Source of the DNA: Undaria pinnatifida
Taxonomy: Eukaryota; Sar; Phaeophyceae; Laminariales; Alariaceae
Assembly (NCBI GenBank): GCA_012845835.1
Contig: JABAKD010000026.1
Location: 11,222,334-11,286,333, forward strand
Length of the DNA stretch: 64,000 bases
Direction: 5' to 3'
Positions 1 to 62,300 of the stretch are shown here, piece after piece. Below the pieces are notes generated by a model, which did no database searches, was not told the origin of the DNA, and saw nothing but the letters and a program-made list of their open reading frames with translations. Position 1 is the first letter of the stretch; each line of letters begins with the position of its first letter. The translations under genes and the position numbers were made by a program.

Positions 1-1294
1 ACGGCAATGCGCGGCAGTTTAAAGATATTCGGCGGTATATGGGAATTCAGCTCTGGACGGATGCCGACGACAATTTATTGTTGGAGTCTAGATAGAGTTA
101 TGCACATCTGGGTTAACGTCATAGACTAAGCATGAACTGACAAATACCGTAGGGCAGCAGCAAAAGTGTGTCATAGATAGCCTGTCGTACTGGAGCCTGT
201 CTTGTGACCACGCGTTAAACCATCGCGCCCATACAACGCAGTCCACAACAGCTATGATACGTCAGTCCAATATATACAATCGCGCGCAATATGACGCCCC
301 AGTAACCCCCCCCCCTCTGCCCGAGTGCCTATCGACCGCTGCTGCAATATATAATAACCAAGGATCCTCGCATGAGGAGCTCTATATACCTGACCCAACC
401 ATTCCAGCTAGGTATACACGGGATATGTACTTGTACCCCAATCAATCCCATTGATTGGTTATTTCTCGCGCAGGGTATAGCAATAGCAGACAGGATTGTC
501 CGATGCAAACGATAAAGGGTGGTGCCCCATTGAGCCCAACCGGGCATGAACAATAAAGCATGAGTAGGGAAGGATCGGATTTATTCATGTGTTTTTTATT
601 ATTTTAAACGGGATAGGGATACCAGAGGTAGCCGAAGTAACGGTTTCTCCGTAGGTGCAGCCACCGGCAAGTAACGGTTTATGGTAGAGATAACTAGGCA
701 TGCATATATCAAGCTCGGGGGGGTTAGGGCTTGGGGTCAGACAGGCGCAAAAACAGGCACTCTTCGTCCCTTACACTTGGGAAAAGACCTCGCGAATTGA
801 TAGGTTAGCAAGATCAAGGCGAGCAACAAACGAGTTGGGTTTCTTGCCGGGAACGGCAGCAAAAAGATGTTGTTACTGGGTCCGGCAACAAAGGCACAAG
901 TCTGTGCCTCTCCCTTCGTTCCTCTTGCTACTACTACTTTCTGCTGACGCTGTGAAAGGATCCTGATATATGGTGGCATTTTAGTTTATCTCGATCTCCG
1001 TATCATACAGCTGCTGCTGCTGCTGCTGCACATGAAGCCCACAGTAAGCTACATGCGGCCAGGCGAAAACAAATTATCACATTGTATGGTGATGAGAAAT
1101 GAGTCGCGTGATAGGTCGTGCGTGGTGCGTGCTGTGTGTTCCCTTCATACGGCGGGGGGAAACGAATCACCACGATTAGTTTTGATCAAATTCCTCTTTG
1201 GTCGATCTCACAGCTGAATTGAATCTTTTTATTATTTAAAAAATAATGCGGATGAAAAATAGTCTTGAGATATTTTTTTGCATGGCAACTGCAA

Positions 1295-11383: not shown

Positions 11384-11412
11384 CTGCCCTAACCCTAACC
11401 CTTACCTTAACC
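11384..11412. repeat. short interstitial CCCTAA-type telomere-like tract
   Basis: CCCTAACCCTAACCCTTACC is about three and a half units of the CCCTAA telomere repeat. A shorter hint (GGGTTAGGG) occurs at 3158-3170. It is too short to indicate a chromosome end. Confidence 0.6.
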
Positions 11413-11419
11413 GAAACCA

Positions 11420-12110
11420 AAACTTCCGCGGACTTCAGTGGTAATTGCCGCGTACCGGAGGATTGCCGTAGCAATGGCTGGGGAATGCGGCGAATGGCTG
11501 TGGGAACTGCTGCGGTTGGACGTCCGCGGAAACTGCCGTGTCAATTGCCGCTGACTTCCGTGCCACGCAGTTTCCGCGGCAATTGCAGCGGACCTTCGTG
11601 GGTGGCCATGGTTGGTACGACGGAGTTGCCACGGACAGAACCGCGGCACGTGCTGTGGCAATTGCCGCGGACTTCCGTGATAATCGCCGCGTATCGGAAG
11701 ATTGCCTTGACAATGACCGCGGACGGCCGCGGATGGCCGTGGAAAATGCAGTGGACGGACGTCCGCGGAAACTGCCGTGGCAATTGCCGCGGACTTCGGC
11801 AAACTCCCGTGGTGATTGCCCCGTTGCCGTGGCAATGGCCGCGGATGGCCGTGGAAATTGCCACAACAGTTTATGCGGAAACTGCAGCGGCAATTGCCGC
11901 GAACTCCCGTGGGTTGCCATGGTTGGTACGACCGAGTTTGCCACGGACATAACTGCGGCACGTTCCGTGGTCACAACCATGGCATTTACCGTACAGATGC
12001 CATGAGCCGTGGCGCATGCGATACCTGCGGATTTCCACGGTAGCCCATGGCAATACCCACGGAAGTCCACGGAAGTTCCGCGATCATTGCCGCGGACCTC
12101 CGCCAAAAAG
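11420..12110. repeat. degenerate CCGCGG minisatellite, ~0.7 kb
   Basis: A run of degenerate units of about 25-30 bp built from CCGCGGACTTCCGTGG and CAATTGCCGCGG. The units are themselves partly palindromic, so both strands carry long open frames (up to about 220 codons) rich in repeated R/G/N/C words. Those frames are by-products of the array, not genes. Confidence 0.8.
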
Positions 12111-15984: not shown

Positions 15985-16235
15985 AAGTGGTGCATTCCAC
16001 AGCTGTCAGCTTTGCTGTCCCCTTCGAAAACGGATTTTATAGTTTCCGTGCACAGATTGATGAACATCATCCTGTTGCCCCCGCTACACTGTAGTTCTAA
16101 GGGGAGTCGCCGACCTTTATCCTTAATGAGGACACACACCCAGTAGTACGCACGATCAGAGTATCACACACAGCTTGCAAAGATGAGTTTCGACGAACTC
16201 TTCGATCTCACAGCTGGAGTGTATTTTTATTTTAT
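15985..16235 (+). repeat. MSFDEIF-family inverted repeat, long forward copy
   Basis: This copy keeps the 5' block (CAGCTGTCAGCTTTGCTGTC and TTTTATAGTTTCCGTGCACA). It then has GCTACACTGTAGTTC, AAGGGGAGTCGCCGACC, the TCCTTAATGAGGA hairpin, CAGCTTGCAAAG and an ATG opening MSFDELFDLTAGVYFYFI. The short frame is intact. Confidence 0.85.
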
Positions 16236-16429
16236 ATAATATGTAAACGTGTAATTGTCCTCTTTTTATCGGGCACACCTCTTCGTGCTCGCACCTTTAT
16301 CCGAAACGTCAGATGGGGTGGGCACAATTCGACCGTTGGGGTCACGTTGCCGAAGGTTTGGGCGCGATCCGTGCATTTTGCCGCGCGTGGCAAGCCTTTC
16401 AAACTTTTTTGGCCTGGGGCATACTTAAG

Positions 16430-18720: not shown

Positions 18721-19470
18721 GTATTGTCCCCTTGCTCCCTCGTTCTCAATATGTGCTCTTTTAATTTTGTGCTACAGGATTTGTAAGCCACGTCCCACGC
18801 CATCGGTATGGGCCTGTCACACCCTCCCAACAACACGTGCCGCTTCCTGGCAATCTCTATAAGTAGCTGGAGTTCAAAGCGTGGCCCTCTCTTCGGAATT
18901 ATCCATAGGTACCATACACACCGTCTAAGAATACGTAAGTGTTGTGTTTTGAGGCTCAATAACGATATAACAGATCGCGATCATGGGCACGTCTATCAAT
19001 ACCCAAAAGATATAAAAAGTACTGCTATTGAGCAAACCCAAGAAAGTACCGGTTAAACGCGAAATCGTTTTTTTTTTCGGGAAAGTTTTTTTTCGGCATG
19101 TACCAAAAATGGCCATCGCGTCCGGTGTAGCGATAATAATGTGTGTCCTTACGCCACTCTCCTACGAACTTCACGGAGGGGAACCTTGTATCTTCGTATC
19201 GTAGTGTCGCTGTATTAAAAAAAGAAAAAGAAAACGGTGTAATCAGTTGTTAGCAGTGTCTACTGTAGTCCAAGTAGTTAGTGGTCATCAGGCAAAATAT
19301 AAATAATACTCCGGAGTATAATAGATTTATCGCCATCCATCCAAGTCCACTAAAACAAGCCAGGGCACAAACTCTTGCTGCATTGCAGGGTGCAACAACA
19401 AAGACAAAAGGCAGCAGGAACCCATGCTCGACGTATACGTACACATTGGATACCTGGTAATAAATTGATC

Positions 19471-19930
19471 ATGCCAGTACGAAATGTGACCAAGCGTCAA
19501 AAGGCAAGGGCAGTCGTCGTCGAAGCAGCAGCAGCAGCACTGGCAGCAGCAAGCATCAGCAGCAGACCCCGGATCCTCGCGGATCGCAGCCCCTGCTGAC
19601 AGATCCACCGCCCCAGTTGTGGGCTTGCTGCCGGAGGCGGCTCAGCTAGGCTGCTTGCCGGGGCCGGAGAGTGCATAGATAGATACAGTGGCTATTAATA
19701 GCTCGAGAATATTCATACCAGTACGAAATGTGACCGAACTTAAAAAAGCAAGAGCAGTCGTCGTCGAAGCAGCAGCAGCAGCACTGGCAGCAGCAAGCAC
19801 CAGCAGCAGACAACGCATCCTCGCGGATCGCAGCCCCTGCTGACAGATCCACCAACCCAGTTTTGGGCTTGCTGCCGGCGGCGGCTCAGCTAGGCTGCTT
19901 GCCGGGGCCGGGGACTGCATAGATAACTAG
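19471..19930. repeat. two-copy tandem duplication, period ~244 bp
   Basis: Both units run CCAGTACGAAATGTGACC, GCAGTCGTCGTCGAAGCAGC, a CAG tract, CCTCGCGGATCGCAGCCCCT, GACAGATCCACC, GGGCTTGCTGCCGG and GGCTCAGCTAGGCTGCTTGC. The units are highly similar, so the duplication is recent. The frames within are CAG-driven artefacts. Confidence 0.85.
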
Positions 19931-20149: not shown

Positions 20150-20496
20150 TGTTTGACCCGTGCCTTTTCGACTTTGACCCGTGAGATATATCACGGGTCC
20201 AGTCGACCCGACCCGCATGAAACCCGCACCTCACGGGTCACTCGGAGTGTGGCGGGTCGGGTTGGGTCGGGTCAACGGGCTTTCAAAATCTCGCGGGTCA
20301 AATCGGGTCGGGTCAGGAAATTTTCAAATCCCACGGGTCGGATCGGGTCGGGTCAGGAGGTTTTAAAATCTCGCGAGTCGGGTCGAGTCGGGTCGGGTCG
20401 GGTCAAGACGCCTTGAAATTCTCGCGGGTCGGGTCATCTGACCCGACCCGACCCGGCCCGCGAGGCTTGACCTGGCCCGTGAAAAGCCCTGAAATG
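20150..20496. mobile_element. hAT-like element with GGGTCGGGTC minisatellite core (copy 2)
   Basis: The element ends GGCCCGTGAAAAGCCCTG, the inverse of the start of the element at 8277. Its body is the same 50-55-bp unit (TCGGGTCGGGTC, then TTTCAAAATCTCGCGGG-like). The left end near 20150 is degraded (ACCCGTGCCTTTTCGAC). It is non-autonomous. Confidence 0.6.
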
Positions 20497-21479: not shown

Positions 21480-24400
21480 ACAGCCACTGCAGTTGCGGCC
21501 GTGGCTGCGCAGACAGGGGTTGCGGTTTCAGTGTCCCCCGATGCGGCGTCGGCAGCGGCGACAGGGGGCGCTCCGAACGGGCTCCCGGCTTCGGGGTATT
21601 TCGTTCAACACGCCGTTTTCAAGGTGAGACCATTTTTGTCCGGTGGACAGTTTTTTACGTTTTGTGGCCGTTTGCTGCATACTGTACAGCTGTTGTCGCC
21701 AGGGCAGTCCTCGGGATTTTTGCTGCGGGCTTTCAAGGGAAGTGGGGTTTTTTTTCCCCCGTTCCCGTGCAATTATTTTTCCGGTAGTCCCATCCAAACC
21801 TAATCCAAACAGTACCAAGTTCCCAGGGAAATGTTGATTTCCCGTTCCAAATCCAACCCCCCCCCCACATCTTCATTTCACATTCTCAACTTCATGCCCC
21901 CGCCACCCCCAATCCTGCCCCTTTTCCTTCACCCCGTCACCCGAGAGCAGGTGCCGAATATTGACGAAGAGATTAAGTTCTACACACAGGGGTTGGGAAT
22001 GAAGGTCGTGCGACAGAGGGAAGTCAACGGTGCCCGAAACGTTTTCGTGGCGTACGGAGAGGAAAGCCTCCGTGCGAAGGACGGAGGTGGGTGACGAAAG
22101 AAAAACGTGCTTTTCTTAAGAGCCCCTTCCCCCCCCCCCCCCCCCCCTCCCCTCTAACCCCCCCCCCCCCCCTCTTCCCCCGTAAATATTGGGGGGGGAA
22201 AGGCTATTCATCCGTGTATCAATAGTTCGCGTCGCCTCTTTTTCGTTACGACGGATATTTCTTGTCCCAAGAGGATATTTCTTTTCCCAGTGGACATATC
22301 CCGCCCTAGCATAAACTGTTAGTCCCAAGTTACGATTTACGCCCCAAAACCTACCGCTTTTGTTCTGTTTTCGTCTCAGCGAACAGCTTCCGCCCGTTGT
22401 TTCCTCCCAACGTACGGTTTTCGCCACACACCATAGTTTCTATTTTTCGCCCCAAGTTCCTGTCTTCGCCCCAGCTGCCCGCATACATTTGTCGTCCCAA
22501 CGTTCTAAGGCATGGTTTCCCTTTTGTAAGTCCCACAATACATTTGGTCCCAGCTCACTTTTTTTTGTTTCATCGTACATTTTTCGTCCCACGTTACAGA
22601 GTGTGTGTCCCAACAACATACGTTTTTTTTCATCCCAACGTACCCATGTGTTCCGCCTACAGGTACCGTTGCATGTTTCCATCCCAACCTAAGAAATCTC
22701 CGCCCCAGATTATCCCAGTAATCCGTCTCAAACCGTGCATGTGTCATGCCAATGTGTACCTGGTGCAGTGGGTACCCCGGTTTAAGAGCGCCCTATGAGA
22801 AGCCGGAACAGGCGCTCTTAACTACACATTTTTGCTTACTGTGGTGTACGATATATGGCTTTTAGCATGGCGGGACACGACAATTTGACCGCTCGAAAAT
22901 CCCGAATGCTCTTAAACCGGTTTCTCTTAAATCCGGGTACTGACTGTGTACTTTTTTTGTTACCCCAGCTTCCAAAGTCTTGAAACACACAGAACGCAGA
23001 TTAGTTCTAATAAGGTGCTTTTTTTTGTATCCCCTACCTGAAAATCTCGAATATTCAACATCGTCGCCTTTTCGTTTAACCCGAGTACATACTTTCGTTG
23101 CGCCAACCACCTAAATATCTACAAACCAAAAACAAATGCCAGGTTTTTTCTCTCTAGAGCTGGTGTATGACCCCAAGGCTCCAGTAGCCTACCCTTCGGG
23201 GGGCGCGTTCCAGTACCTCGGCATCACCCTCCCTTCCACCCTCGCCATGGTGGCCTATAAGACCGACGATGCGGTAAGAAGAGAAAAAAAGGCGTTTTTT
23301 TGCGATATCATACGCACTATATACGAGGGTTGGGGCGGGGGGCGGAGGGGGGGGAGGGTCCCGCTAGAAGAAGAGGTAATGCGTCTATGTTGTGGTATGA
23401 GAATGGGGATGTGAGGGGGGAGGGGGGGAAGTTCATGTGTAAGTACGGTGAAGGCGTTTTTTGTGTACTCTAGACGGAAAATAAGGACCGCTCGGTATTT
23501 CATGTTCATACAACAACTGCCCCTATTGTTGCTTCCAGGGTGGTATGTTCCACAGGCAAATAAGGGGAGGGGGGGAGGGGGGGGTGGCGAGTGGAAGAAT
23601 TAGTTTGAAACATTCCACGGCTAGCGGACGCTACGTAGATGAGACGTAATGGTGTTGGTTGTATAGTTTTTGTTGCTGATTTCGTTGGCTTTGACTTTTA
23701 GTTGGTGACTGTAGTTGGTGATTTTTTGTCTCGTCGTCAGGGCGTGCGAAGAGCGTCGGTGGAGGGTTCCGTCTTAAGCTGTGGGGGCGAGGGGGGAGGA
23801 GGGTTCGTCGATGAGGCCGACAAGGGCAGTGAATCCTGAAAATCGCAGCTGTGGGTCCCCTCGCCCCACAACATTCCTTAGGACCACGCATCGCCCTCCC
23901 CCTCCTCCCCTCCCGTTCTTCGTCTTGGCACAATAAGGACGCGAGGGCATATGGTCTTACAGACCACGATGATGATGATGATAATGATAATGATTACAGT
24001 CCCCCCCCCCTTCATGCGACTCGCCGAACACCTCACGGCGCTTCGTGCTTGGTGCACCCAATGTCTGCCCGGTCGGTGAGAACCCAACGTGCTCCGTCCC
24101 GGTATTGCAGGGATGCAAGGGTTATGGCCATACGAACACGGCTGAGCATGAAATAAGTACCCCCCCCTCCCCTCCCCTCCCCCCCTCCCCCCCCCCCCCA
24201 TGGCCGCCTTCAGGGAGGCACCGTGGTCCCTCACTGGTTCGGAACGAAGGACTTTGTTGAGGTAACGTCACCATGCGGCACAACCATAAGGGTCAAGGAG
24301 GGGAAACGGCGGGATCCGTTTTCGGTGCTTGCGTTCGGCACCCAGTACCCGGACAAAGCCACAGCCTACTTCCATGTGAGATGCCGACCGAGTGTTTTCA

Positions 24401-33560: not shown

Positions 33561-33679
33561 AGACCCATGCAGGCCCATCATAACGTCGATGCAGTTCTAA
33601 AGAGACTAAAACAAAATCAAGTTGCGTGTCCCCAACGACTTGTTGGGTTCCAAATTGTCCAGAGGTGATAAGGCCGCGG

Positions 33680-33735
33680 GGGATCAATGGTCTTAGGGCT
33701 CTAAGGCTATGCATGAAATGAACACCCCCCTATCC
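33680..33735 (+). repeat. partial copy of the ~80-bp dispersed repeat
   Basis: GGTCTTAGGGCTCTAAGGC, TATGCATGAAATGAACACCC matches the second half of the repeat at 24085 and 47569. It adjoins the SAAL1 exon relic. Confidence 0.55.
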
Positions 33736-39689: not shown

Positions 39690-40370
39690 CTTGCTCAGGG
39701 TCAGATTGTCGGGCCGCACCGAGAAATACACGAAGAAGTCGTATTATGGAGGCGTCGTCCTGTGCGACCGGGTTCGGGGTTCAGATTCAGGATTCGAGTT
39801 CATGTCGGGGTGGTCAAAATCGGTATTCAGTACTACAGCAAACCTATCCCATACTAGCCGCACGTGTGTCATCCCCAACAACATGGATACAGTAGTTGAG
39901 GGGCAAACATGTCATCACCCCGGCGAAACTCCTGCTACTATTGGAGTAGACTCGCCCTCGACAAGAAAACCACGCTGAGGCAACCCACACAGCAGAAGCC
40001 GCGCCTTATCATAGGTCCATACCGCTGAGAAAAATGTGTGCCTGGTAGAGGTGCACTAATGAGCTGACCGTCTCGTGGTCTCGTGGTTACCCACCACGAA
40101 CATCATAATCCATAACAAAATGCATACAAGCCGCCCCACGCACTTCACGCTTAATTCACCTCAGACGTATCGCGCAGATATAACGTTTCCCGTTGTACCG
40201 TTACTATGTCACAAGACGGTCCCATTGTATGGAAACCCCGAACGATTAACCAAATACCGTTCATAGTACGAATGCAGGGCTGTGAGTTAATAATAGAGAC
40301 TTCGCTGCTACCAGGTAGTGATTCGTTGGGTGGCGGTGTAGCTGACACGTCAGGTAGTCTTTATTATAAA
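39690..40370. other. intergenic, no gene seen
   Basis: Only short frames without family signature. The promoter and 5' end of the SAAL1-like gene should lie in or just before this stretch, but no element can be named. Confidence 0.5.
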
Positions 40371-40781
40371 AATTAAAATACACTCCAGCTGTGAGATCGA
40401 AGATTTCGTCGAAACTCATCTTTGCAAGCTGTGTGTGATACTCCGATCGCGCGCATTACGAGTTGTGTGTCCTCATTAAGGATATAGGTCGGCGACTCCC
40501 CTTACAACTACAGTGTAGCTATCAGGGTCAACAGGATGATTTTAGTCACTCTGTGCGCGGAAACTATGAAACCCGTTTCTGAGGGGGACAAAATCTGACA
40601 GCTGTGAAGGGAAAGGGGGGCCTGGTTTTGATCAAAAGCGAGCGGGTTTGGGGGGGGGCGGGGGGGGGGGGGGAAGGGGCAATTTGTGCATGTAAGCTAT
40701 AAATCCTTTCGAGGGGATAAATCTGACGGTTTTGGCACCAGTATATTATTGGGGGCGGGGGGGGGGGGGGGGGGGTTGGGG

Positions 40782-42059: not shown

Positions 42060-43008
42060 CTCCTAGCGGAAATGAGCCTTGCCTCCATGTCTGCGTTCCT
42101 TTTGTGAAACTGCAGCGTTTGCCGTCGTGTGCAGCAGTATTGTATAGCATACCAGGTTCTTGGTGTACGTGCTCGTAGTCTGGTAGGTGCTACCAATGTG
42201 CTGAGTACAACAAACAAAAAAGCTGACAGTCCCGTGGATATTCCGCCGCGCGAACATCACGAATGCACCGATACTGCTTTATCGTCGTCGACCTCGACCT
42301 CACACCGCCCAGCCGCAACAGGTAGAGCGATCCGGGACAACCGTGAGAGGGCTAGAGAACCCCCTCCGTACATCCAGGCATGCAAAGTAGCACCCACAGC
42401 AGTAACACCATTCTACAGAGGCCCGCACCGAAGCGCTGTTGCTGGCACAACAAGCGGTCGCAGTTGTATACCAGTACTCATCGTCTATCAATATTCTAGA
42501 GGGCCTACTTGCACAGGATGCAATTTGCGGTACGTGACGAAGAAAACAATAAGGCGTGCTCACCAGTTGCCCAACTCTTCTATCATCTCACCACCAACTT
42601 CAAACCTTCCTCCTTGTCACCGCTGAGTGCACCCTCTGGACCCATGCTTGTCCAAACGACGGTCAGGGCCAGCGGAGTCCGACCTATGTCACGATGACCG
42701 TACCACACGGTTGAATTTTGAATTTTACGAAGTCAATAAAAGTTTTCCAGAGATAATGCTGGATGTGTGTGACGGGGGTGGCGTTAGTTCTACGGGCGCC
42801 CGGAGCCCGGAGCCCATAGTGATTGTTGTGCCACAGGCCGGTGCTCTTTGCTCGTGCTTGAGTGATCTTCCTCATACTACGTTAATTGATCGTATGCGAA
42901 AGCATCGCGTGTGAAGCTTAGTTGCGCATGCTGCTCAATAAAGGGTGCCATGTGTACCAAGCGTAATATTGTTGTTCAAATGCTAAATGGTTAGTCTATT
43001 AATATTAT
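42060..43008. other. no recognised gene
   Basis: Overlapping frames (42129-42626, 42509-42697, 42627-42914) have mixed composition and one CTGC...-type Cys pair (TCTGCNLRYV), but no family can be assigned. Confidence 0.4.
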
Positions 43009-43009
43009 A

Positions 43010-43505
43010 AAAATTAAAATACACTCCAGCTGTGAGATCGAAGATTTCGTCGAAACTCATCTTTGCAAGCTGTGTGTGATACTCCGATCGCGCGCATTAC
43101 GAGTTGTGTGTCCTCATTAAGGATATAGGTCGGCGACTCCCCTTACAGCTACAGTGTAGCTATCAGGGTCAACAGGATGATTTTAGTCAGTCTGTGCGCG
43201 GAAACTATAAAACCCGTTTCTGAGGGGGACAAAATCTGACAGCTGTGAAGGGAAAGGGGGGGCCTGGTTTAGATCAAAAGCGAGCGGGTTTGGAGGGGGG
43301 CGGGGGGGGGGGGGGGGGGGGAAGGGGCAATTTGTGCATGTAAGCTATAAATCCTTTCGAGGGGATAAATCTGACGGTTTTGGCACCAGTATATTATTGA
43401 GGCCGGGGGGGGGGGGGGCAGCTCGATATGTGCCTGGAAACTATACATTATTTCGAGGGGATAAATGTGACATTTTTGGAAATAATACATCAGTTTATCG
43501 TGTAT
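43010..43505 (-). repeat. MSFDEIF-family long copy with poly-G tandem tail (copy b)
   Basis: About six differences in 260 bp against the copy at 40371. It has one more poly-G-tailed unit (43420-43505, GGAAACTATACATTATTTCG, AGGGGATAAATGTGAC). It is followed by a G-rich stretch to about 43730. Confidence 0.85.
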
Positions 43506-45810: not shown

Positions 45811-48800
45811 TTAGAGTTCCATGGGCTGCGGTGCATCTTCCACAGTGACTAGAGAGGACAGCGGCTCAAACCGCGACGCCAATATCTCCGTCGCCCCCTT
45901 CGGTACCTGAAAGCACACGAAAAAAAGGAACAAAACAAAAAATATGCGCGAGACGGAGCATGGAAAAGGTGCAAAAAATAAGAGCGCAACAAACGGCCAC
46001 GCAATAATTACACGCCAACATATGCAAACGAAAAAGATACATGAAAAAAAAAAACTACGAAGCGATACAAATAAACTGATACACGCAAACGGTGAACGGG
46101 TACCAACCACACACAAAACAATACTCGAGACAAATCATGAAAACGTACACAAGGTCAAGACTCTTCTCTCTTGCTGGTGGTGGTTGTGGTGGTGGGAGGG
46201 GTGGTGTTGGTGTTGTTGGTGGGATTGGTGGCGTTGATGTTGGTGGTGGTGGTGGTGGTGGTGGTGGTGGTGGTGGTGGTGGTGGCGTTGATGATGGTGG
46301 TAGTGTTGTGGTCGTGTTGGTGAGTATAGTGGCATTGATGGTAGTGATGGTAGTGGTGGTGACATTTCTACTGCTTCGAAGTGTATGTAAACAGTGGCGG
46401 AGCTCTTGGCAGAGCTCGGCGGACCGGAAAAAAAAAACGAAACCAAGTCCCACAAAAGCGTGGCCTATCATTTCATACACATCCACAGCCAGCAGCACAA
46501 ATATCATGAGTGCTTACGTTGAGGGCAGCAGGGCGTTCCAATGTCTTCCGAAGCTCCGACACCTCGTTGGGCTTCTCCACTCCCCTGAACCTGCGATATT
46601 CGATTGGAATTAGTTGAGAGGTTATTAACACGATCAGTTTTGGATTGAGCGAGAGCACTGGTGGTGGAGAACGAACGGCCCAGCGCATTCCGCGACGCAA
46701 ACATCTTACTCGCACGTAGCACGCCTGATACCATACCCAACGCTAACCCCATCGCGCTCCGCCCGCAAGGGAAGAGGTTCAGCAAGACAACCACTCGTCT
46801 ACAAGGCGTCGTGGTTGTCGCGGTAGACAACCTCCTACCAGCCCTTCTCCCTTCCTTTGTCCCTCCCTCCCCCCCTGCTTCCCCCCTTCTTTCCCTCCCG
46901 ACCTCTCTGCACTCGTAGCAGCCTCGACATTCACAGCTCGCCGCCTGGGTCTCGTCTAGCCAAACCTAAAAAAAACTTCAAGAGCCGGGGGGGACGGGGG
47001 GGCGCAAAGGGCGAGGCGGGCACTCAACGCCTCCACTACGCTCCATGACAAGTGACTCCATCGAAGCTCCTTCCTCGCCATTTGAGCAGGCATCCAACTT
47101 GCTCGCGCAGGACGTGGCCGCTTACCCTCGCTCATTCTTCCGCTTTCTCGCCTGTTGGCAAAGCAAACTCAAGCAAAGTCTACACCAGCTGAAGCGCAAA
47201 ACCACGCGCCGCAATATTAGCCGCAGCCCTATCGTAGACGCCGACCCCCCACACACCTTCCCCTACTCTCTTTGTGACCTCTTCCTCTCCCCCTATACCT
47301 GTCCTTTGTAAAATACCCCCCCCCCCCCCCCCCCCCCCGATCCCGTCCGTATCCTAATGACAGTCACGTCAACATTGCTGCCGGAGCCATCAACACTGCT
47401 GCCGGAGAGGTCGTTGCTTGAAATATTCCCCCTTCTTCTCGCCCCCCTCCCCCTCTCCACGTACATACGTTGCAGCTTAGCCGCCGACCCTAAGCGACAG
47501 TCACGTTAGCGTTGCTGCCAGAGCCACGCCCGTCAAAAGCCTCCCTCCCCGTCCACGTCGAAAACGCGACGTGCTCCGTCCTGGCATTGTAGGCATGTGA
47601 GGGTCTACGGTCGAACGACTAAGGCCATGCATGATAACGAGTACCCGCCCCGCCCCCCGTTCCCATCATTAAAGCCTCCTTAACACGAACACACCTTGCA
47701 GTTTCGCCGCCGACCCTAATGACAGTCACGTCCACGTTGCTGCCGGATCCTAGGTCGTTGAAAACACCGGAGAGAATGGCCTGCTTGACAAGCTCAACCG
47801 CCTCCGCCTCATCCATGTCATCCTTGAACCCGGTTTCGAAAACCTGAAAAAAAAAAAATTAAAAAGGGCGGGGGGGGGAGCGGGAGGGGGGGGTGGGGGG
47901 CTGTAAGCGTTGGGCGGTATAAAGCAGTTAGGCTAGAAAATTATAACATGTAAACCTTGAAGCTGGTTTCGTAAACGTATGACGTGTATCAGGAGAGGTT
48001 GACCGCGGGTAGGCGCGAGGGCGGGGGGGGGGGGGGGGGACTCATTTTGATGCATGGTCGTAGTCTTAGACCATTGACCATAGCATCCTTACAATGTCGG
48101 GACGCAGCACATCGAGTGATCACAGACCAAGCAGACATCGCGTGCACCACGCGCAGGAGGGGGGGGGAAGGGGGAGGGGCGGGTGGATCATATATCAGCG
48201 GGGTTCCGACTCAATCTGAAAGGCGTAATGACCGTCAGCGTGGCGCTGTTGCACCTCCCCCCCTTCAAACCCTAGCCTCCTTTTCCAAACTGGCATCACC
48301 GCGAGCGATGTAACGACCGCCAGTATGGTGATGCCCTCCCCCCCCCGCCCTTCTTCCAAAACCCTCTCCGCTTGCCCCTCTCACCGGCATTGATGTCAGC
48401 TACGTAATGACCGGCAGAATGATTTCGTTGCCTGCTCCTCCCTCCGCCCTCCCTCCTCCAACCTCCCCTCCAAACCCTAGCGTCCTGCCCCTTAGCGATA
48501 TCACCGTCAGCGATCGAACGACCACCAACGTGGTACTGCCCCCCCCCCTCCCCTTTCGACTTCCCTCTCAAACCCTTCCAACCTGCTCCGTACCGATATC
48601 GCTGCCAGCGATGTCATGACCACCAGCGTGATGCTGCCTGTTGCCCGTCCACCCCCCCCCGCTCTACCCTCCCTCTAAACTCTAGCCTCCTGCCCCTCAC
48701 CGACATCGCCGCCAGCGAGCCCGACCCCATGGTGAGGTACGGCAGCTTGTCCGAGCTCCCGTGCGGGTAGATGTTGTACAGGTGGGGCCCCGTGACGTCA

Positions 48801-51800
48801 ACGCCTCCAAGCACTAACGCCGCCGACACGTATCCCTAGCGGGTGAACAAAAATAACCATCCATTCAAGCAACGGGAGGACAAACAAGCAAATGTTTTTT
48901 AGGTGAAACAGGAGGGCGGGGACAGTGTGCCGTCGGTAATGAAATGTATCCAGACAGAAGCCGACAACTTATCAGCACAAGCGCTTCCAAGCATTAACGC
49001 CGCCGATACGTGTCCCCAAGGGGTGAACAAAAAATACATAATCAACCACCCAACCAACCAATCAGGGGATAGCCATACAAACAGGCAATTTTCGTGAAGG
49101 GGGGGCAGGAAAATGTAAAGGTAAAAGGCGTTGCAATTAAGGGAGGGGCGAGGACAGGTTGCCGTTGGTAACGGAATAGAGCCAGCATCGCATGAGGCAT
49201 GACAAGGGTGCCGAGGGGAGGCCCCGTGGCGTTAACACCTCCAAGCACGAACGCCGCCGACACGAGTTCCTAAGGGGTGTACAAAAACGGCAGAACCAAG
49301 CAATCAATGAATGGACGGGCATTCGAAGAGGTGGTTTTGCGAAGGGGGCGCGGAGATAAATTGCCGTCGGCATCGAAATAGATCCTGCGCGGAGGAGACA
49401 AAAAACAGGCCCTATCGCCCCCAAGAATTAACGCCGCTAACACGCCTTCCTGCTGGTTGAAAACACACAAAACCCATCAACCAACCTACCTACCAGCCAA
49501 ACAACCAGCCAACCAACGAAGCGACGGATAAGCACTGAGGCAGTTTTCGTTCACGGGGGGACGGGTAAAGGTTATGTTGCCGTCGGTAACGAACCGGCGT
49601 TGAATATAAGGGGGGGACGGGGACAGGTTGCTGTCGGTAACGAAATAGAGCCAGCGTCGGATGGGATATAACAAGGGTGCAGAGGTGAGGCCCGGGACGT
49701 CAACGCCTCCAAGTACTTCCGCCGCTGACACGTGCCCCTGCGAGGTGAAAAAGTCGCCCGATCCAATGAAAAACCAGCCAATCAACCCACCCACCAACCA
49801 ACGCACCAGCCAACAACCCAACCAACCATTTAATCAAGGTACCGAAGCAAGAGGTGGTAAAAATGGTATCGATCGTGTCCCCAAAACGGATAGGTCTTGA
49901 AAATGATGGGTACGATCGATGCCCCCAGAGTGGGTATGATCGTGTCCTTAAGGTGGGTATGATCATGTTCCACGATCTTGTTCCTAAAAGTGGTATGATT
50001 ATGTTCCCAAATTCGTGGATAATTTGGGATATGGCCATGTCCCCGAAATTGAAACGATCCTGGCCCATAATGGGTGTGGTCATCTCCAAAGGCGGTACAA
50101 CCATATCCCCAACGTACATACCAGGTATCAGGGTATGGTCATGTGCTATTTAAGAGCGGAACACGAGCGCAAAGTGGATACGACCATGTCACTGAAAAAC
50201 TTGTTGGTGTAATAAGGAATTTCTTCAAGATGGATACAATAAAGTGCATACATTGACGTATAATCACATCCAAAAGTGGACTTGATCCCACATTCGATAA
50301 AATCACCCACGAAAAAAGGTAGGTATGATATTTTCCCCAAGCTGGAAACAAAGCCGAGACTGCGCCACCGATTACAAGTAGCAAATAAGCCGAGAAACGA
50401 GACACCCACACCCAAGTGAACTCAACCACAGGCAAAAAGAGGCAAGCCACCCCAAATTGAGACCAGCACAGCCAAGCGTAGACACAGCAGAGGCAAAGAG
50501 AGACAAGCACAGCTAAGCAAACTAACTATTGCAAAGTCGAGCTCAGCTAAACAGAACCAAGCAAAAACGCGCAACCAAGCGAAGCCTAAATGAAGCTAAG
50601 CGGAGCAATAACAACTTGGTTTCGGTTTTGCTCGGCTTTGGTCGATTTAGCTTGATGTCGCTTGACTTTGCTTGGTTGCTGCGCACGAATTTACTTGGCT
50701 GCGCTTCCTTTGGGCTCGCTTCGTTTGGCTTTGCTCCGCATCTTTTTGGCTTGGCTTTGTAGGTGTCTGCTAGGACTTGCTTGTGTCCAATTGGTTTTGC
50801 CTGGCTTCGCCCGGCTCTTTGCTTCGTTTGGCTTTGCTTATCTTTGCGTGGATCCGATCTGCTTCGCCTCACCTGGTAGCGGAAGAGCATTCGCTTGAGC
50901 ATGGTACAAGCCGTGATCACCCGAGACTGGGTACCGGTAGACAGACGAAGCAAATCCAGCTGCGCGCATATCAAGGAAGGAATGGAGGGGGGGAGCGAAA
51001 GAATGGGGGGGGGGGGGGGAGGAGGAGGGGAGGGGAGGGGACGGAAGGTGATTAACTGTGGTGCACATTAAACTCGAGACTAATATACCTGGTCCAGCAT
51101 TTTGTTGACTCAATCGTAGACCCTAGAAAGAAGCACGACGTAGAGTAGGGGCTATATATAGCAAACCCCTACATCTATGCGACCTAAAGCCTCCCCCCCC
51201 CCCCCACACACACAAACACACACACATTCTCCCCCCCCTCCCCCACAAGAAGGATTTATAGTTTCCACGCACAAATTGAGCTGCCCCACCTGTCCCTCCC
51301 CCCCTCCCGCCCCCCCTTTTGATCAAAATCAGCCCCCCAAGTCCTTAAAAACTCCGCCCTCCCCTCACCGGTTATTCGACTTACAGGATTCACTTGATAA
51401 ACTGATGCATTTCCTTCCACAGCTGTCAGGTTTTGTCCCCCTCAGAAACGGGTTTTATAGTTTCCGCGCACAGACTGCCTAACATGACCCTGTTGACCCT
51501 GATAGCTACGCTGTAGTTGCAAGGGGGGTCGCCGACCTATATCCTTAATGAGGACACACAACCCGTAATACGCGCGATCGGAGTATCATACACAGCTTGC
51601 AAAGATGAGTTTCGACAAAATATTTGATCTCACAGCTGGAGAGTATTTTCATTTGTACTCGAGTATAATATAAGGCGGAATATGGTAGCACGAAGGAATT
51701 TTGGCCGTCGTATATCGAGAGGCCGCCCTACTCGTATAACACGCTTGCGGCAGTTTTTTCAGAGTTGCAGTCGTGGCAACCGGTTTTAGCCGTCCTACTT

Positions 51801-52180
51801 CGAGTGGCCGCCTAACATAGGCTCCACTTATGTATTCATGTATCCATACCTCCACAGCAAGTACCTACATCACTTGCGACGTCGCTCAAGAGATCCTCGC
51901 TCGAGAGGTCGATTTACGACTTCGATTGATAGCTGGAACCTAGCATCGACGTACGAAGAAGTGCAGTACCGGCATGACATACCCGTGTACCATTAATAGG
52001 ACTACAAGGAGCAGTACTGCAAGCAACGGCACTGCTGCTGTGCTGTACAGCAGTATCCGGTACGAGCGATGCTGTTTGCTGCAACAGACGTACAGCACCA
52101 GAACAACTGCTGTACAACATCAGAGAAGTACATCAGTTCAGCAGCACTACAGCTGCAAGACAGCAATACAGCTGCATTGT

Positions 52181-52230
<50 letters not shown>

Positions 52231-52656
52231 CACCATGGGCGCAGTCTACACAAGTGCACAGATTGAACGTTAACGAACCTGTCCCGAAATCATCTCTGTC
52301 GTCTTCTCTGTATCTGCCGCCGTGCCCGCCCCGCAGCAGTAGATGTTCGGCGCCAGGTAGTGAATCTTGTCGCAGTTCTTGTCCACAACCTCCGTACCCC
52401 CTGTGGCGCGAGTGTCCGCACCAAGCACCACCCCCCCCTTGAAGACGCAGCCGCAGATGGTGGTCCCTGTGAGCTTGGCTCGAGGCACGGTGCCCTCCTT
52501 GCCGGCTTTGGTTAGCTCCGCGATGATGCGGTTGTTGCGGTGGTGGTTTTCGAACCCGAAGCCACCAATGTTGGGCGCCGACGAGGAGGCGACGGCCTCT
52601 TCTCGGATGTGCGCGGGCACGCCGGATCCTCCTCCCATGCTGCTCAGCTCCGTCAT
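45811..52656 (-). CDS. PSMB7: 20S proteasome subunit beta type-7 (beta-2, trypsin-like), six exons
   Basis: Exons on the minus strand: 52656-52279, 50959-50873, 48835-48701, 47843-47695, 46590-46518, 45906-45811. All have GT-AG junctions with consistent phases (0, 0, 0, 2, 0), giving 305 residues. The ATG at 52656 is the first in-frame Met after an upstream stop. The N-terminal extension is about 25 residues longer than in animal homologues. The propeptide ends KLTG|TTICG, so the catalytic Thr is residue 65. It is followed by [78 protein letters not shown] and [15 protein letters not shown]. The product is predicted to be a catalytic beta ring subunit processed on assembly. Exons 3 and 4 are accompanied by relic copies of themselves, and intron 1 hosts an MSFDEIF-family element. 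Exon sequence itself looks intact. Confidence 0.95.
46222..46290. repeat. (GGT)n microsatellite in proteasome intron 5
   Basis: Almost pure GGT on the + strand; frames read Gly, Val or, on the minus strand, His/Pro/Thr. Located between exons 5 and 6. Confidence 0.95.
47339..47535 (-). pseudogene. two relic copies of the donor-side end of proteasome exon 4
   Basis: On the + strand, real exon 4 has CGCCGACCCTAATGACAGTC, ACGTCCACGTTGCTGCCGG (about 47707-47746). The relics are CGTATCCTAATGACAGTCAC, GTCAACATTGCTGCCGGAGC (about 47349-47390, plus GAGAGGTCGTTGCTTGAA) and GCCGACCCTAAGCGACAGTC, ACGTTAGCGTTGCTGCCAGA (about 47482-47523). They lie in intron 4, downstream of the exon in gene orientation. 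Confidence 0.75.
47569..47650 (+). repeat. ~80-bp dispersed repeat, left arm around proteasome exon 4
   Basis: ACGTGCTCCGTCCTGGCATT, GTAGGCATG, GGTCTACGGTCGAACGACTA, AGGCCATGCATGATAACGAG, TACCCGCCCC. It lies 45 bp from exon 4, with its C-rich end facing the exon. Confidence 0.75.
48035..48115 (-). repeat. ~80-bp dispersed repeat, right (inverted) arm
   Basis: The complement reads GTGCTGCGTCCCGACATTGT, AAGGATGC, ATGGTCAATGGTCTAAGAC, GACCATGCATCAAAATGAGT, CCCCCC. It lies about 190 bp from the other side of exon 4, in opposite orientation to 47569-47650. Confidence 0.75.
48205..48700 (-). repeat. array of copies of the donor-side end of proteasome exon 3
   Basis: About five units of roughly 100-115 bp end at about 48250, 48340, 48435, 48545 and 48640. 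Each has a CCTAGCCTCCTGCCCCTCAC-like word, then a CGATATCGC.G.CAGCGATGT word and CGACCACCAGCGTGGT-like bases. The first two words equal the end of real exon 3 and its donor (TAGCCTCCTGCCCCTCAC|CGACATCGCCGCCAGCGAGC). The donor dinucleotide is kept in some units and lost in others. Confidence 0.7.
48905..49750 (-). pseudogene. four relic copies of the acceptor-side half of proteasome exon 3
   Basis: Copies lie at about 48905-49028, 49145-49280, 49345-49460 and 49570-49750, all on the minus strand in intron 2. Against the real exon start ([17 protein letters not shown]) they read [41 protein letters not shown] and [16 protein letters not shown]. Each is followed by a shared LYFVTDGNLSP-like stretch and a similar piece of upstream intron. 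Three of the four retain an AG immediately before the exon-like start. Beyond about 15 codons they diverge from the real exon and cannot replace it. Confidence 0.8.
49850..50340. repeat. GGTATGATCATGTCCC minisatellite in proteasome intron 2
   Basis: About 17 degenerate units of 25-35 bp with AAAGTGGGTATGATCATGTC cores. It fills part of intron 2 next to the exon-3 relics. Confidence 0.8.
50350..50870. repeat. AAGC-rich / GCTT-rich mirror-composition block
   Basis: The left half (about 50350-50612) is full of AAGC, AGCAAAG and ACAAGC words. The right half (about 50630-50870) is full of their complements (GCTTTGCTTGG, TTGGCTT). The block could fold back on itself. It ends at the donor of proteasome exon 2. 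Confidence 0.7.
51170..51660 (+). repeat. MSFDEIF-family long forward copy in proteasome intron 1
   Basis: It has the same layout as 40371 and 43010 but inverted: C tracts, AGCTGTCAGGTTTTGTCCCC, GGGTTTTATAGTTTCCGCGC, CTGTTGACCCTGATAGC, GGTCGCCGACCTATATCCTT, then ATGAGTTTCGACAAAATA and CTCACAGCTGGAG. The short frame begins [15 protein letters not shown]. Confidence 0.85.
52180..52232. repeat. (CAG)n microsatellite in proteasome intron 1
   Basis: Pure CAG repeats about 45 bp from the donor of exon 1. Confidence 0.95.
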
Positions 52657-55282: not shown

Positions 55283-57962
55283 AAGGCACCACAACGCGCG
55301 AGCAGCATGGGGACTGCCGCGGCGAGGAAGGGAAGGAAGGGCGACGGCCGGCATGGCGACGCCTTCCATGAACATGCTCGACACAGAGGTAAGAAGGGGA
55401 TTTAAGGGGCGAAACAAACAGATATCATGCTTTTCTTTGCTAGATAGGAGATGACGAAGCATCCATAGTCGCATACTAAGATGAAGAAACGGACTATTTC
55501 CACTTTCGAAGGACATTGCATACAGGGGATGTTATTGTGGGGATGAACACATTAAATTGCTGTGTTTTTGCGGCGGCTAGTCCCAATGAGCCTTTAATTT
55601 TCGTATTTTTCGGTTGTGTCATGGATGATTTCGTGTTTTTTTTTTGTGTGCACATGATCACATGACACGGAATGGTAGGGACATTCGTGTTGTCAATGTT
55701 CCCCCTCACAATCAACTATTCCATAGCCCGTATTGGCGTTTCTTTGCGTGCTAGACTATTAAAAGCACTGCGATATTTGTATCGCAGGCGTTTTATTTTG
55801 TACCAGGTACGTGCTTCTGTTCCATCGGGACGTTTTTTAGCCTATTTCGGTGGACACGGGCTAAATTCCAGGGAAATTGCCATATACCACAGCCCGTATC
55901 CGTTTCCTTGCGTACTAGACTGGTACAGCGATAGTTGCATCGCAGGCATTTCATTTGTACGTGCTTCTATTCCATCGGGACGATGTTTAGTCTATTTTGG
56001 TGGACACGGGCTAACTTCCAGGGAAATTACCTAATTTGCATTTTTGGCTTATTTTTATCGCCCGCGAATACTCGTTTGGATGGCAGGATCCTCCGATGCT
56101 GATTGGCCACGGGTTCGACATCCACCGCTTGGTTGAGGGGAAGGAGCTCGTGATTGGTGGGGTGAAGATCCCGTATGAGCTGGGTGCCGACGCTCACTCC
56201 GATGGGGACGTGATTTACCACAGCGTGGTCGATGCTATCTTGGGTGAGAGGTGGGGCGGGGAGGGAGAGAATGGGCGTTGTCAGAGATCAATTACTCAAA
56301 CAACCATATCAATAGTAACTTGTGGGGCGCCTGTCCGATTTGAATTAAGCATCTGTCAGTAAAGGGATGCCTACGAAGGGAAGGGTAAGTCAGCCCCCCA
56401 CCCACCCTGCTGTTTGAGGCGGAAGAAGAGTGGCTCCTCGCTCAACCGCTACTCGCTCTGGCGTCGCCACGCCGCGTTAAAACGGTGGTGCTGACCGGGG
56501 GGGGGGTTGGTTTCCGTCATGCCCCGTTCAAACGTGTTATTGTTTTTTTCTTGTTTTTTTGTTTTTCAGGGGCCCTAGGGTTGCCCGATATCGGCCAGAT
56601 TTTCCCCGACAACGACCCGGAGTGGTCGGGCGCGGACTCGAGCGTCTTCATGGAGGAGGCAGTCCGAAGGATGGAGAGCAGGTGGGAAGAGGGCGGACAT
56701 TTTTCGCGCTCGTTTGTTCTTTTTCTCTGTTCGTTTTTTAGTACTGGGCGACTACTACTTCGTATCTTTTTCATATCTTGTCCTGCTTTTTTTTAGTCAT
56801 GTTTTTATTCCTCCGACGGATGGGGAAAAACAAAGCTTAACCCCTTTAGAACTGGAAACCCGTTTTTGGGGACAAAATTACCTGGATTTAGTATTGGGAG
56901 GGGTTCGGGGGCTCTAAAGGGGTTAAGCTCACGACATTTCCAGGTATTTTCACACATGTACGTAGTCTGTCAATTTAACTCGATTGCGTTCGCAGTCCAG
57001 CGCTATCTGGCGTATCATTCAGTTCCCGTGGTAACCAAAGCGCGAGCTGTCCGTACCGGCGGTCACCGTTGCTACTCCAGCAGCGCAAGCTTGTATCATA
57101 GTTTGCGGTACCCGAAATATCACTCTTGTCAGTCGTATATATTTGAGGTGGGTGTTTTTGTTTATTAACACGAAAGTGGCAATGGCCAAACAGAACCGAA
57201 TCTACCGCTGCTGTGCTTCTGCACTGTTTTGGCGTCCTCGTCGTGTTCTACGTTTTTTTGGTGGTAATCATGTTTTTTTTTCGGCGTCTAAGAGGGACCA
57301 TGCTTGCCCGAGATGACTTCAAACTCGTTTCTCTTCGAGATTTAAGGCGTTCTACTGATGTAGACGGCGTTTCTCCCCCCCCATCCCCCCCATCCCCCCC
57401 CCCCTCCCTTTTTGTGGCCGGTTTTGTCTGTTGCCTGTTCCGATTAAGGGGGTTTCGAGTCGGCAACGTGGACGTTACCCTGATATTACAAAAACCGAAG
57501 GTAGGGATGGCGGGAAAAATACTTACTATTTAATAGGGTACAATTGTAAATCACAAAGTTGTGATGTCTTTATGCCTGCTTCTCGGCATTTCATGTCCGA
57601 GGCGGCAGGGAGGGGGACGGGGGGGGGTGCAGACGCCGTGGTGATACTGGACGCTAGCCGGTAATGGGGGGGCAGGTTTGGGTGCTACAAAAATGGTGGC
57701 CGCTGGGTGTGCAGATGCAAGTGGGTAGAAATAGCAGGGGATACAACACACACAAATCTCTCTTGTCTCCCAACCCTTTTTCCTGATCGTCTCCCAGGTG
57801 ATGGACATCAAGCCGCGGATGCGGGCGAACATCGTGCGCCTCCTGCAGACGTCTCCAGGCCGCGTTAACGTCAAGGCCAGGACTCACGAGAAGGTCGACT
57901 CTGTTGGGGAGGGCCGGGCGATGGCTTGCCACGTTGTCGTTTTGTTGGAGAAGATCCCTTAG
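55283..57962 (+). CDS. ispF: 2-C-methyl-D-erythritol 2,4-cyclodiphosphate synthase, five exons
   Basis: Exons 55283-55388, 56087-56243, 56570-56681, 57449-57500, 57798-57962, joined in phase at GT-AG sites. IspF converts CDP-ME 2-phosphate to MEcPP with release of CMP in the MEP isoprenoid pathway, in the plastid of algae. Visible family features are GHGFDIHRL (the metal-binding Asp and His), [21 protein letters not shown] (the third metal-ligand His), [31 protein letters not shown] and [19 protein letters not shown]. The last is the plant/plastid form of the C-terminus. The core from MATPSM (ATG 55353) is about 173 residues, close to bacterial length. The frame continues upstream of 55283, open to an ATG at 54861 through a hydrophobic Ala/Leu-rich and CTG-repeat stretch. 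The real presequence exon is therefore unresolved; I chose the acceptor after the T-rich tract at 55282. Intron 3 carries a repeat with an 82-bp MITE. Confidence 0.93.
55715..56034. repeat. two-copy tandem duplication in ispF intron 1, period ~171 bp
   Basis: Both units run ATAGCCCGTAT / CACAGCCCGTAT, TTGCGT.CTAGACT, ATCGCAGGC.TTT, GTACGTGCTTCT, TTCCATCGGGACG, GGTGGACACGGGCTAA and TTCCAGGGAAATT. The second copy ends about 50 bp before exon 2. Confidence 0.85.
56805..57008 (+). repeat. dispersed repeat copy in ispF intron 3, with MITE insertion
   Basis: Homologous to 3374-3487 on both sides of the 82-bp insertion described separately. The flanks carry CCTCCGACGGATGGGGAAAA and GCTCAC..CATTT / TCAATTTAACTCGATTGCG. 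Confidence 0.8.
56841..56922. mobile_element. 82-bp piggyBac-like MITE with TTAA duplication
   Basis: It starts CCCCTTTAGA and ends TCTAAAGGGG, a perfect 10-bp terminal inverted repeat. It is flanked on both sides by TTAA (56837-56840 and 56923-56926). The related repeat at 3374-3487 has one TTAA and no insert. TTAA target choice and duplication with CCC-type ends is diagnostic of piggyBac-superfamily transposition. No coding capacity. Confidence 0.85.
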
Positions 57963-59372: not shown

Positions 59373-62300
59373 TCACAACGGCCGCCGCTTACGACAACAA
59401 TAACGTCCCCAAACTGCAACACGCGCCTCCTCCTCCTCCCGTCTTCGCGGCCGCTTCGCGCTTAACGCTTCGATCAGAGCATTGTAAACGCCAACATCCG
59501 GCGGCGCTCCCGACGCCCCCATCTCCTCCACCACCCCCAATCCTCCCCGCCAATCGCCCGCCCTGCCGCAAGCCGCGACGGTCAGGCGCGCGAGTACGGC
59601 GTCTTCCTTAATCTTTGCCCCCATATCTCTCAGACGGAGCAAAACCCGGTCCCAGTCTCCACCCCCCGCCTCACACGCGGCCAGCGTCAGGGTAAAAGTG
59701 AACGCGTCCGGCTTTAAACCTGAGTCGATCATCTCCTCGACGAACCCCAACGCGCGTCGCCAGTCCCCCACCCCACCTGCCCCACACGCCAATATGAGCG
59801 CGTTATATGTGACCAGGCTGGGGGTCACCCTCACGCGTTGCATCCCTTCTAGGACCTCCAGGGCGCGCTGCAACTGGCCGGACTTCGCGCACGCATCAAT
59901 AACCGAGGTGTAACTGTACACATCGGGCGGGGACAGTCTCATCGACCCCCTTGCATGCGCTGCGCCCCCCCTGTCTAACTCCCTATGACCTCGCGCGGTG
60001 CCCAGTCGGCTTAACTGGCTCCCGGCGCCCACCCACCCCGGCGGGGGGGGGGCGTGGGCGAGCTTGTGGCCGCGACGGGACGCCCAGCTCATCTCCCCTA
60101 ACAAGCGCTGAGCGCGCTGCCACTGTCCCGCTTTCCCCAAAGCTCCCAGAGTGGCATTATACGCGATGAAACTTGGTACCATTCCACCCCGCGAGGTTAA
60201 CCGGAGCGCTGCAAGGGCCTCCTTCCACCTCCCCGCCACGCCGCAGGCGGTGATAACCGAGTTATAGATAACCGGGCTACGGGAACTTTTTTCCACCCCA
60301 CGCGAGGTCATCCTCCTAAAGACGCGCCATGCCACGCGCCACTCCCCCGCGTTCGCCGCCGCTACTATCAGCCCCCGGTAGCTCCTCGCGTGGAGCTCAT
60401 GCCCCGCCTTCTCCATGTCTCTTATGACCTCCCCAGCCTTGAACCACTCTGTCGATTGCGCGAAAGCATCGAGGACACCGTTGTAAACCTTGGCGTCGGG
60501 AGTTAACCCGGCGCTTTTCATCTCAGAGAGGAGTTTGAGCGCCTGTGACCATTTCCCGGAGTTACCGAAGTGTTCTAGCTCGAGGCGGTAGCACGCTAGA
60601 GTGTGGGGCACTCCCGCAGAGGACATCTCCCGCCGGAGGGCGGGGACGTGGCGGTACTCCCCGCAGCGGCAGCAGGCCTATCATACCCACCAGAAGCATC
60701 AGGAACAGCAGCATAAATGGCAGCAGCACCAGCAGCAAGAACAGTAGCGAGAAGAGCAGTGCAGAAGCAGCATCAGGAAGCGCAACAGTCGTGACAGCAT
60801 CGGTATCACCAACAACAGTAAGAGGATACCAGAGGGGGCAAGGCGGGCGGCGGGTGAGGGGCGGAGTCGGAGGGGGGGCGACGTTCAAGGGTTCGAGCGA
60901 GATAGGAAAAAGAAAGAGGAGTACTCCTACAAGATATCATGGAAAGTCGGGGGAGACGTCGCGTAAAGGCAAAAGGTAGATATTTACATGTGTATATCAC
61001 CTGATACAACCTTCATATTTAGGTGCTGCCCGCTACATACCTGGATGGCGTTGGAGAAGCAGTGAGTATTCGGAGCGATCCCGGCTGCCCGCATGCGGCT
61101 CAGCAGCCCCAGCGCGTCCGCCCAGCGCTTAGCCTTGGCCATGCCTCCAATGCAGGCGTTGTACCCGTGCACGTCCACCCCCCCCTCCTTCCGCTCGGCA
61201 ATGGAGAGAGCGTTGAGCACGCCCACAATGTTCTTGTCCTGGGTGAGCTCTCGGATGTGGAGGACAAAGCGGAAGGAGTCAGACTGAGGGAAGACGAGCT
61301 TGCCGCGACCGCCCTTCCCGGTTGCCGGCGGGGGTACGGGGAGTCCGGCTCGTTCCGCGTGTGCTTGTTGGAGGTGTTGTTGCTGCTGGAGCGCGAGAAT
61401 GTGCTGGGGTAGAGGTTGCTGTGGTGGTGGTGGTGGTGGTGGTGGTTGTGGATGTAGTGACGGTGAGGGCTGCCGAAACCGCCATCCGGATGCCGCGCTG
61501 TGTAGGAATGAATGTCAGCACGGTCCCGAAGCGCATGGTACGGTGAGGTATCGGAGTCAAATATTAATAGTCTACCCATGGGTCACAGGTACACTTTCTA
61601 CCGTTACGTAGACAGATCTTCTCGTGAAGATTTGTATGAACGGTAGCCGTTCCAGAGGTATTGGATATCGTGTCTTGTTGTACTAAAAGTGGTCGTCGAG
61701 TCTCCGTAGATTCTGATGACAGAGAGGCGGGTAATGACGTTTCCCGCTGACAAGTAATCTTTGCCTGCGAAGCACCTTTCGTTGCCTCAAGGCACTTCTA
61801 TCGTTACCGTCGCTTGGTTCGCCGTCGAACCTTGCTCCAACCCGGCGTGTCCTCCACGCTACGAAGAACAAGAAGAGAAGTGGTTGCAAGTTGTGAGTCG
61901 AACCTGGGTTACCCCAATCCCTCATACCAGCTATTATTGATAGTACGATGCGGTAAGGTATGGTACGGTGGGGCGTAGGTTTATGACACACCAACGCACT
62001 ACCAACTAGAATAATACCAACACCAACACGAACACAATACACAACCAACTGCAACGACAACAAGCAAAACAATAATAACCACCCCTGCAACCATACTGCG
62101 CAACAGCCACCACCACCACCACCACCACCACCACCACCACCACCACCACCACCACCACCACCACCACTACGCCAACGACGACGACATTCAATAGGAACCG
62201 AACGTGCGTTGCTGTCTGCCTCTCACCCTCCTTGAGACGAGCCGGTGCTCGGCAACGGCCGCTTGTTGGCTGCCGACCCTGACGACGCTCTCCGCGGTGA

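Follow-up and report, generated by a model that had tools for sequence, protein, structure and literature searches.

Tandem duplication of an exon can lead to mutually exclusive exons. In the stretch of Undaria pinnatifida DNA analysed here (assembly GCA_012845835.1, contig JABAKD010000026.1, positions 11,222,334 to 11,286,333; the whole 64,000 nucleotides are called the window), exon sequence is likewise repeated in the introns adjoining two exons of PSMB7, the gene of the proteasome subunit beta-2. However, mutually exclusive exons need a complete extra exon with an acceptor and a donor, whereas the PSMB7 introns repeat exon edges only. Intron creation by internal tandem duplication also reshapes the exon-intron structure, but the PSMB7 introns appear lengthened, not created. 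The nearest precedent is the RNA-dependent RNA polymerase (RdRp) gene of potato, for which a tandem duplication across the intron 1/exon 2 boundary is described and in which, as in PSMB7, the exon sequence in the upstream copy turns into intron (PMC4974935). As summarized in that report, one duplication gave the potato gene a new intron and a new donor, with RNA support. In comparison, PSMB7, known here from its sequence alone, has several decayed copies, can be read with no added intron and shows the pattern on both sides of two exons. Introners are another source of repeated intron sequence (PMC9860276); the PSMB7 copies differ from them in being local, tandem and exon-containing, and self-comparison of the 64-kb window turned up exon-edge copies nowhere else. 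The PSMB7 case is best classed as a junction-spanning tandem duplication that lengthens introns and is multi-copy on both sides of an exon. Literature searches confined to open-licence papers listed no title or abstract that describes arrays of exon-edge copies on both exon sides. With a probability of roughly 0.85, the arrays go back to small tandem duplications that occurred repeatedly across splice junctions and were absorbed into the introns, rather than a new type of element. This origin had been suggested in the initial annotation as a possible route of intron growth and is well supported by the comparisons below.

Exon-edge copies flanking exons 3 and 4

PSMB7 occupies 45811..52656 on the minus strand and is complete, with six exons, 305 codons and a stop codon. 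Splicing of exons 1 to 6 (52656-52279, 50959-50873, 48835-48701, 47843-47695, 46590-46518 and 45906-45811, all on the minus strand) gives one frame that is open throughout and requires no added intron. The best match of the product in PDB is Proteasome subunit beta type-7 (E 3.5e-94, residues 22-303 aligned), and the Pfam family PF00227 was detected in three frames of the gene. Protein searches for relatives gave 3 pattern stretches in viral contigs and 29 in genome contigs, none of which was confirmed. The spliced frame bears out the earlier claim of a single intact exon 3 at 48835-48701. This sole full copy is 135 nt long in phase 0, with the acceptor ...cacccgctag and the donor gtgagg, and its encoded peptide runs to ...SLAAMS.

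A search of intron 2 with exon 3 alone gave four matches with scores of 75, 70, 50 and 35.5, compared with a shuffle maximum of 32.5 (for exon-alone queries, the 95% level and the maximum were taken from 100 dinucleotide shuffles). The matches (49733-49678, 49444-49416, 49264-49214 and 49015-48982) are 83-88% identical to the exon and confined to its positions 1-61. When 60 nt of intron were added to the query (300 shuffles), the scores became 95, 80.5, 78 and 42.5, with a shuffle maximum of 32. From the outermost inwards, these minus-strand copies of the acceptor side and the exon start are E (49678..49752, exon positions 1-61, score 80.5, identity 0.85), D (49416..49485, positions 1-34, score 42.5, identity 0.73), C (49214..49321, positions 1-56, score 95, identity 0.79) and B (48982..49058, positions 1-34, score 78, identity 0.83). 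The acceptor AG is kept in E, D and C (49737, 49449 and 49269) and lost in B, which has GG (49015). A VSAA..LGG-like stretch can be read in the upstream copies. The four acceptor-side copies of the initial annotation, three of them with an AG and this frame, were thus recovered. Relative to the junction, the matches span -47..56, -15..61, -38..34 and -38..34; the extension of the copies into the intron past the junction indicates copying at the DNA level.

The upstream copies lie head-to-tail on the same strand at spacings of 180, 254, 180 and 288. Together with the start of exon 3, the whole array (48780..49766, minus strand) forms a higher-order repeat of two units, one long and one short. 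A long post-exon block is common to the long units E and C, whereas the short units D and B are without it. Self-comparison aligns 48780-49299 with 49214-49766 at 67% identity in 560 columns. The shared block and this self-match suggest that a two-unit block was probably duplicated after the first duplications, and the spacings likewise point to tandem duplication followed by block duplication.

The donor side of exon 3 is copied downstream in intron 3. Queries including the intron flank gave four copies with scores of 73.5, 54, 45.5 and 38, compared with a shuffle maximum of 31.5 (300 shuffles). Exon 3 alone gave only two matches (positions 93-135), whose scores of 27 and 25 are above the 95% level but below the shuffle maximum of 29; the downstream copies therefore depend on exon and intron jointly. 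All four are on the minus strand, at 48542..48611 (ATATCG|GTACGG, score 54), 48440..48539 (exon positions 93-135 plus intron, GT changed to CT, score 73.5), 48335..48400 (TGCCG|GTGAG, score 38) and 48257..48308 (ATGCCA|GTTTGG, score 45.5), and GT is present in three of them. The unit is ~100 bp long, about half exon end and half intron, and recurs at a spacing of ~98-107, with junction-relative spans of -43..56, -18..52, -18..34 and -16..52. About five such copies had been claimed. Four are clear (38-73.5 vs. 31.5), while the fifth, a possible fragment at 48223..48257 on the minus strand that consists only of an 18-nt repeat (family D14), is doubtful.

Each side of exon 3 carries solely its own junction. 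At the 95% shuffle level, intron 2 has no match to exon positions 62-135 or to the 150 nt at the start of intron 3, and intron 3 has none to exon positions 1-85 or to the 150 nt at the end of intron 2. These swapped tests of the far exon parts and intron ends, all negative, agree with the earlier statement that each side reproduces only the nearest junction with its adjoining intron. Under the proposed origin, the one-sided content of the arrays would result from where the duplicated segment lies.

Exon 4 (47843-47695), whose two-sided flanking was missed in the initial annotation, repeats the pattern with a weaker acceptor side. A copy of its positions 1-30 lies upstream in intron 3 (47947..47976, minus strand; score 37.5 compared with shuffle maxima of 29.5 and 27.5) and has no preceding AG. 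Joint alignment of the acceptor region with this copy scores 63.5 compared with a shuffle maximum of 40. However, a C-rich stretch next to a dispersed repeat contributes much of that score, the C-rich intron match (48037-48005) being confounded by this repeat and its C-run; only the exon part, which is clear by itself, was therefore counted. On the donor side, exon 4 alone gave scores of 68 (positions 94-148), 58.5 (94-129) and 27 (84-113) in intron 4, with a 95% level of 24.6 and a shuffle maximum of 29. The best copy, with 11 nt of intron and a GTATGT donor, is at 47458..47525 on the minus strand (score 78.5, identity 0.84, junction-relative span -56..11). The second is at 47388-47353 and the marginal third at 47416-47390, both on the minus strand. 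Exon 4 positions 31-149 upstream and 1-83 downstream had no match in the adjoining introns. Comparisons of PSMB7 exons 1, 2, 5 and 6 with their adjoining introns showed no exon match above the 95% shuffle level, and neither did those of the five exons of the IspF-type gene nearby, of which exon 1 is a guess. Two copies of a ~95 bp dispersed repeat bracket exon 4 in inverted orientation, with their C-runs facing the exon.

Decay of the copies and proposed origin

The copies of exon 3 look neutral, decaying like non-coding DNA. This appearance rests on the spread of the differences over codon positions, on exon-like parts that are no better kept than the intron-like ones, and on the outcome of decoy use. 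Counted over positions 1-34 for B and D or 1-56 for C and E (with one gap in E placed by hand), the differences from exon 3 at codon positions 1, 2 and 3 are 9/61, 8/60 and 12/58. Copies C and E are identical at 42 of 55 sites in the exon-like part and at 78 of 95 in the intron-like block. Over positions 1-34, exon 3 is 82-88% identical to B, C and E, whereas these are 74-79% identical among themselves, a pattern to be expected of drifting copies of a constrained exon. If an upstream copy served as the acceptor, the frame would meet a stop after 38 (B), 75 (C), 59 (D) or 83 (E) codons; if one of the four downstream copies served as the donor, it would do so after 73 codons in each case. These eight positions include B, which lacks AG, and one downstream position without GT, and the third downstream donor was placed 3 nt off, which does not affect the outcome. 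The exon 4 donor copy used as a donor at 47469 gives a stop after 74 codons.

These features are consistent with the following origin. A unit of ~100-290 bp, with one end in the exon and the other in the adjoining intron, would be duplicated in tandem, perhaps by slippage or unequal exchange. The innermost junction, beside the rest of the exon, would stay in use and give the correct mRNA, while the extra copy would be spliced out, drift as intron and lengthen the intron. Duplication on the acceptor side would leave copies of the exon start upstream, and duplication on the donor side copies of the exon end downstream. A later exchange inside the upstream array would have copied the two-unit block. 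Duplication of the whole exon (135 nt, in frame) would lengthen the proteasome subunit by 45 residues, and such duplicates would be expected to be lost by selection.

Exon-anchored duplicates make intron growth visible and roughly orderable, since constraint preserves the original sequence in the exon itself. Splice-site choice can be tested on them too, as near-copies, some with an intact AG or GT, lie at most ~1 kb from the sites needed for the open frame. Should a survey find such duplication to be widespread, introns would have, in addition to transposon insertion, a way of lengthening that is simple and can be measured; otherwise the locus is a well-preserved anecdote. The intron lengths would suit a brown alga; the median length of autosomal introns in Ectocarpus is 524 bp (PMC12477816).

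Alternative explanations and the placement of duplications

Regulated unproductive splicing works through transcripts that lead into a stop codon. The stops reached from the copies resemble this, and AG is present in three of the four upstream and GT in three of the four downstream copies of exon 3, so that the copies might function as decoy splice sites or as elements of splicing control under selection, for example giving unproductive transcripts that tune the proteasome level. However, three of four dinucleotides are about what chance gives at 75-85% identity (2.3-2.9 of 4), one AG and one GT have been lost, there is no clear codon-position bias, and the exon-like parts of C and E are no more alike than the intron-like ones. 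The decoy or cryptic splice role raised in the initial annotation thus finds no support in copies that decay like non-coding DNA and lead to stop codons, and we consider it very unlikely. Exon sequence would also lie near the exon if exon 3 (and 4) had been duplicated whole, in the manner of mutually exclusive exons, and the duplicates had decayed. This is hardly tenable: the near parts of both exons have copies of 80-92% identity, but the far parts have no match, which refutes it here. The least credible explanation is a dispersed repeat family that resembles exon edges by chance, or a fault of the assembly. Dispersed repeats are present in the window, including one in PSMB7 intron 1 and the 95-bp C-run repeat flanking exon 4, but the exon 3 arrays (48257-49766) exceed chance similarity and match solely each other and the exon in the self-comparison of the window, the check that had been proposed for them. 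The exon-like copies of exon 4 that this self-comparison lists match exon 4 alone, with the repeats merely adjoining them, and the divergence of the exon 3 copies from the exon or one another (12-26% over positions 1-34) is too high for an assembly fault.

Whether two-sidedness is special was examined by a scan of 1024 pseudo-exon positions at a score of at least 35. An upstream head copy was found at 112 and a downstream tail copy at 116 of these positions, which overlap, lie on one strand and have a fixed length of 135 nt. With exons 3 and 4 excluded, exclusive two-sided flanking occurs at 6 of 987 positions compared with 5.9 expected (5 vs. 4.5 and 3 vs. 2.9 at thresholds of 40 and 45); the six positions lie outside any gene to which they could be assigned. 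In a duplication-rich window, independent neighbouring duplications suffice for the two-sided flanking seen away from exons 3 and 4; with these exons there is a slight excess. The geometry, noted earlier as undescribed, has no description in the open-licence titles and abstracts listed. That it is special in the window is not borne out by the scan. Local direct duplications form 14 clusters in the window, 11 of them without contact to a known exon. One is a ~166 bp tandem duplication (79%) in intron 1 of the IspF-type gene (55717-56031), which is all intronic and touches no junction. Others, up to 92% alike, are at 19469-19925, 16651-17737 and 10288-11970, outside any identified gene, showing that local duplication is common in the window.

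Several results weigh against the proposed origin or its simplest form. Over the whole window including the exons, exclusive two-sided flanking is found 12 times compared with 7.9 expected, and at least 12 such positions are counted in 119 of 974 circular shifts (10 vs. 6.2 and 5 vs. 4.1 at thresholds of 40 and 45). In tests that are post hoc, the gene having been chosen for its arrays, 4 of 10 PSMB7 junctions are positive compared with a base rate of 11% (P 0.019). At thresholds of 40 and 45, at which the exon 4 acceptor drops out, 3 of 10 are positive (P 0.058 and 0.033). All three local BLAST duplications in PSMB7 cross a junction, compared with 14-22% expected by placement (P 0.007-0.015 in a simulation of detection bias). 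The count was filtered at 50 nt and 700 bp, and an intron-only repeat of 33 nt downstream of exon 2 is therefore not in it. Copy D, furthermore, is nearer E (25/31) than the exon (26/34), so that the copies do not form a simple star around the exon.

The junction results could mean that duplication is specifically drawn to splice junctions, for instance by the G-rich donor-side or TTGG-rich acceptor-side sequence, and that copying of junctions is a main route of intron growth. However, none of the 8 junctions of the IspF-type gene (its exon 1 being a guess) is positive, and its sole duplication is intron-only. Taking both genes together, 4 of 18 junctions are positive (P 0.13), or 3 of 18 at thresholds of 40 and 45 (P 0.23 and 0.145), and the 33-nt repeat near exon 2 fell below the length filter of the three-of-three count. 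The evidence for a junction preference is weak, and a specific attraction appears unlikely. It is also doubtful, although slightly less so, that junction-spanning tandem duplication is a main, perhaps junction-biased, route of intron growth in this lineage, in which case introns would record their own exon edges and hold very many half-exon copies of splice sites for the spliceosome to ignore. The 33-nt repeat itself, at 50745-50713, is a near-exact (0.97) intron-only repeat of the intron 2 sequence just past the exon 2 donor.

Neighbouring genes and dispersed repeats

Near PSMB7, the plus strand carries the IspF-type (YgbB) gene and the minus strand pentatricopeptide repeats (PPR). An IspF gene suggests a eukaryote with plastids or one related to such. 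Pfam frame scans covered both strands up to 29.8 kb, from 31.0 to 46.0 kb and beyond 54.0 kb, and the minus strand between 46.0 and 54.0 kb. Besides the proteasome family, they detected only the IspF-type (YgbB) and PPR models and a sub-cut-off TFIIA match. A codon-usage scan for further genes gave 118 segments compared with 129 in a reversed-sequence control and was not used. A PPR frame in the open reading frame list (59373-60677, minus strand, 434 aa) is long and uninterrupted, whereas PSMB7 and the IspF-type gene are intron-rich.

The ~95 bp dispersed repeat ending in a C-run is present at 23915-24007(+), 24079-24170(+), 24658-24576(-), 33658-33734(+), 47561-47654(+) and 48119-48029(-). 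Two copies other than those around exon 4 likewise bracket an open stretch at ~24214-24376, a candidate exon with no convincing match in PDB. The repeat may be a small mobile element with a preference for positions next to exons, or the arrangement is a coincidence. A second dispersed repeat of ~160 bp occurs in both orientations at 9181-9345, 16083-16245, 40362-40521, 43002-43162 and 51503-51653, the last within PSMB7 intron 1, with the copies 88-93% alike to the one at 9181-9345. Longer versions of ~250 bp are at 40367-40614, 43008-43255 and 51410-51657. The stretches 8306-8530 and 20252-20435 are far apart and carry the same repeat, and each is internally repeated at a spacing of ~80 bp.

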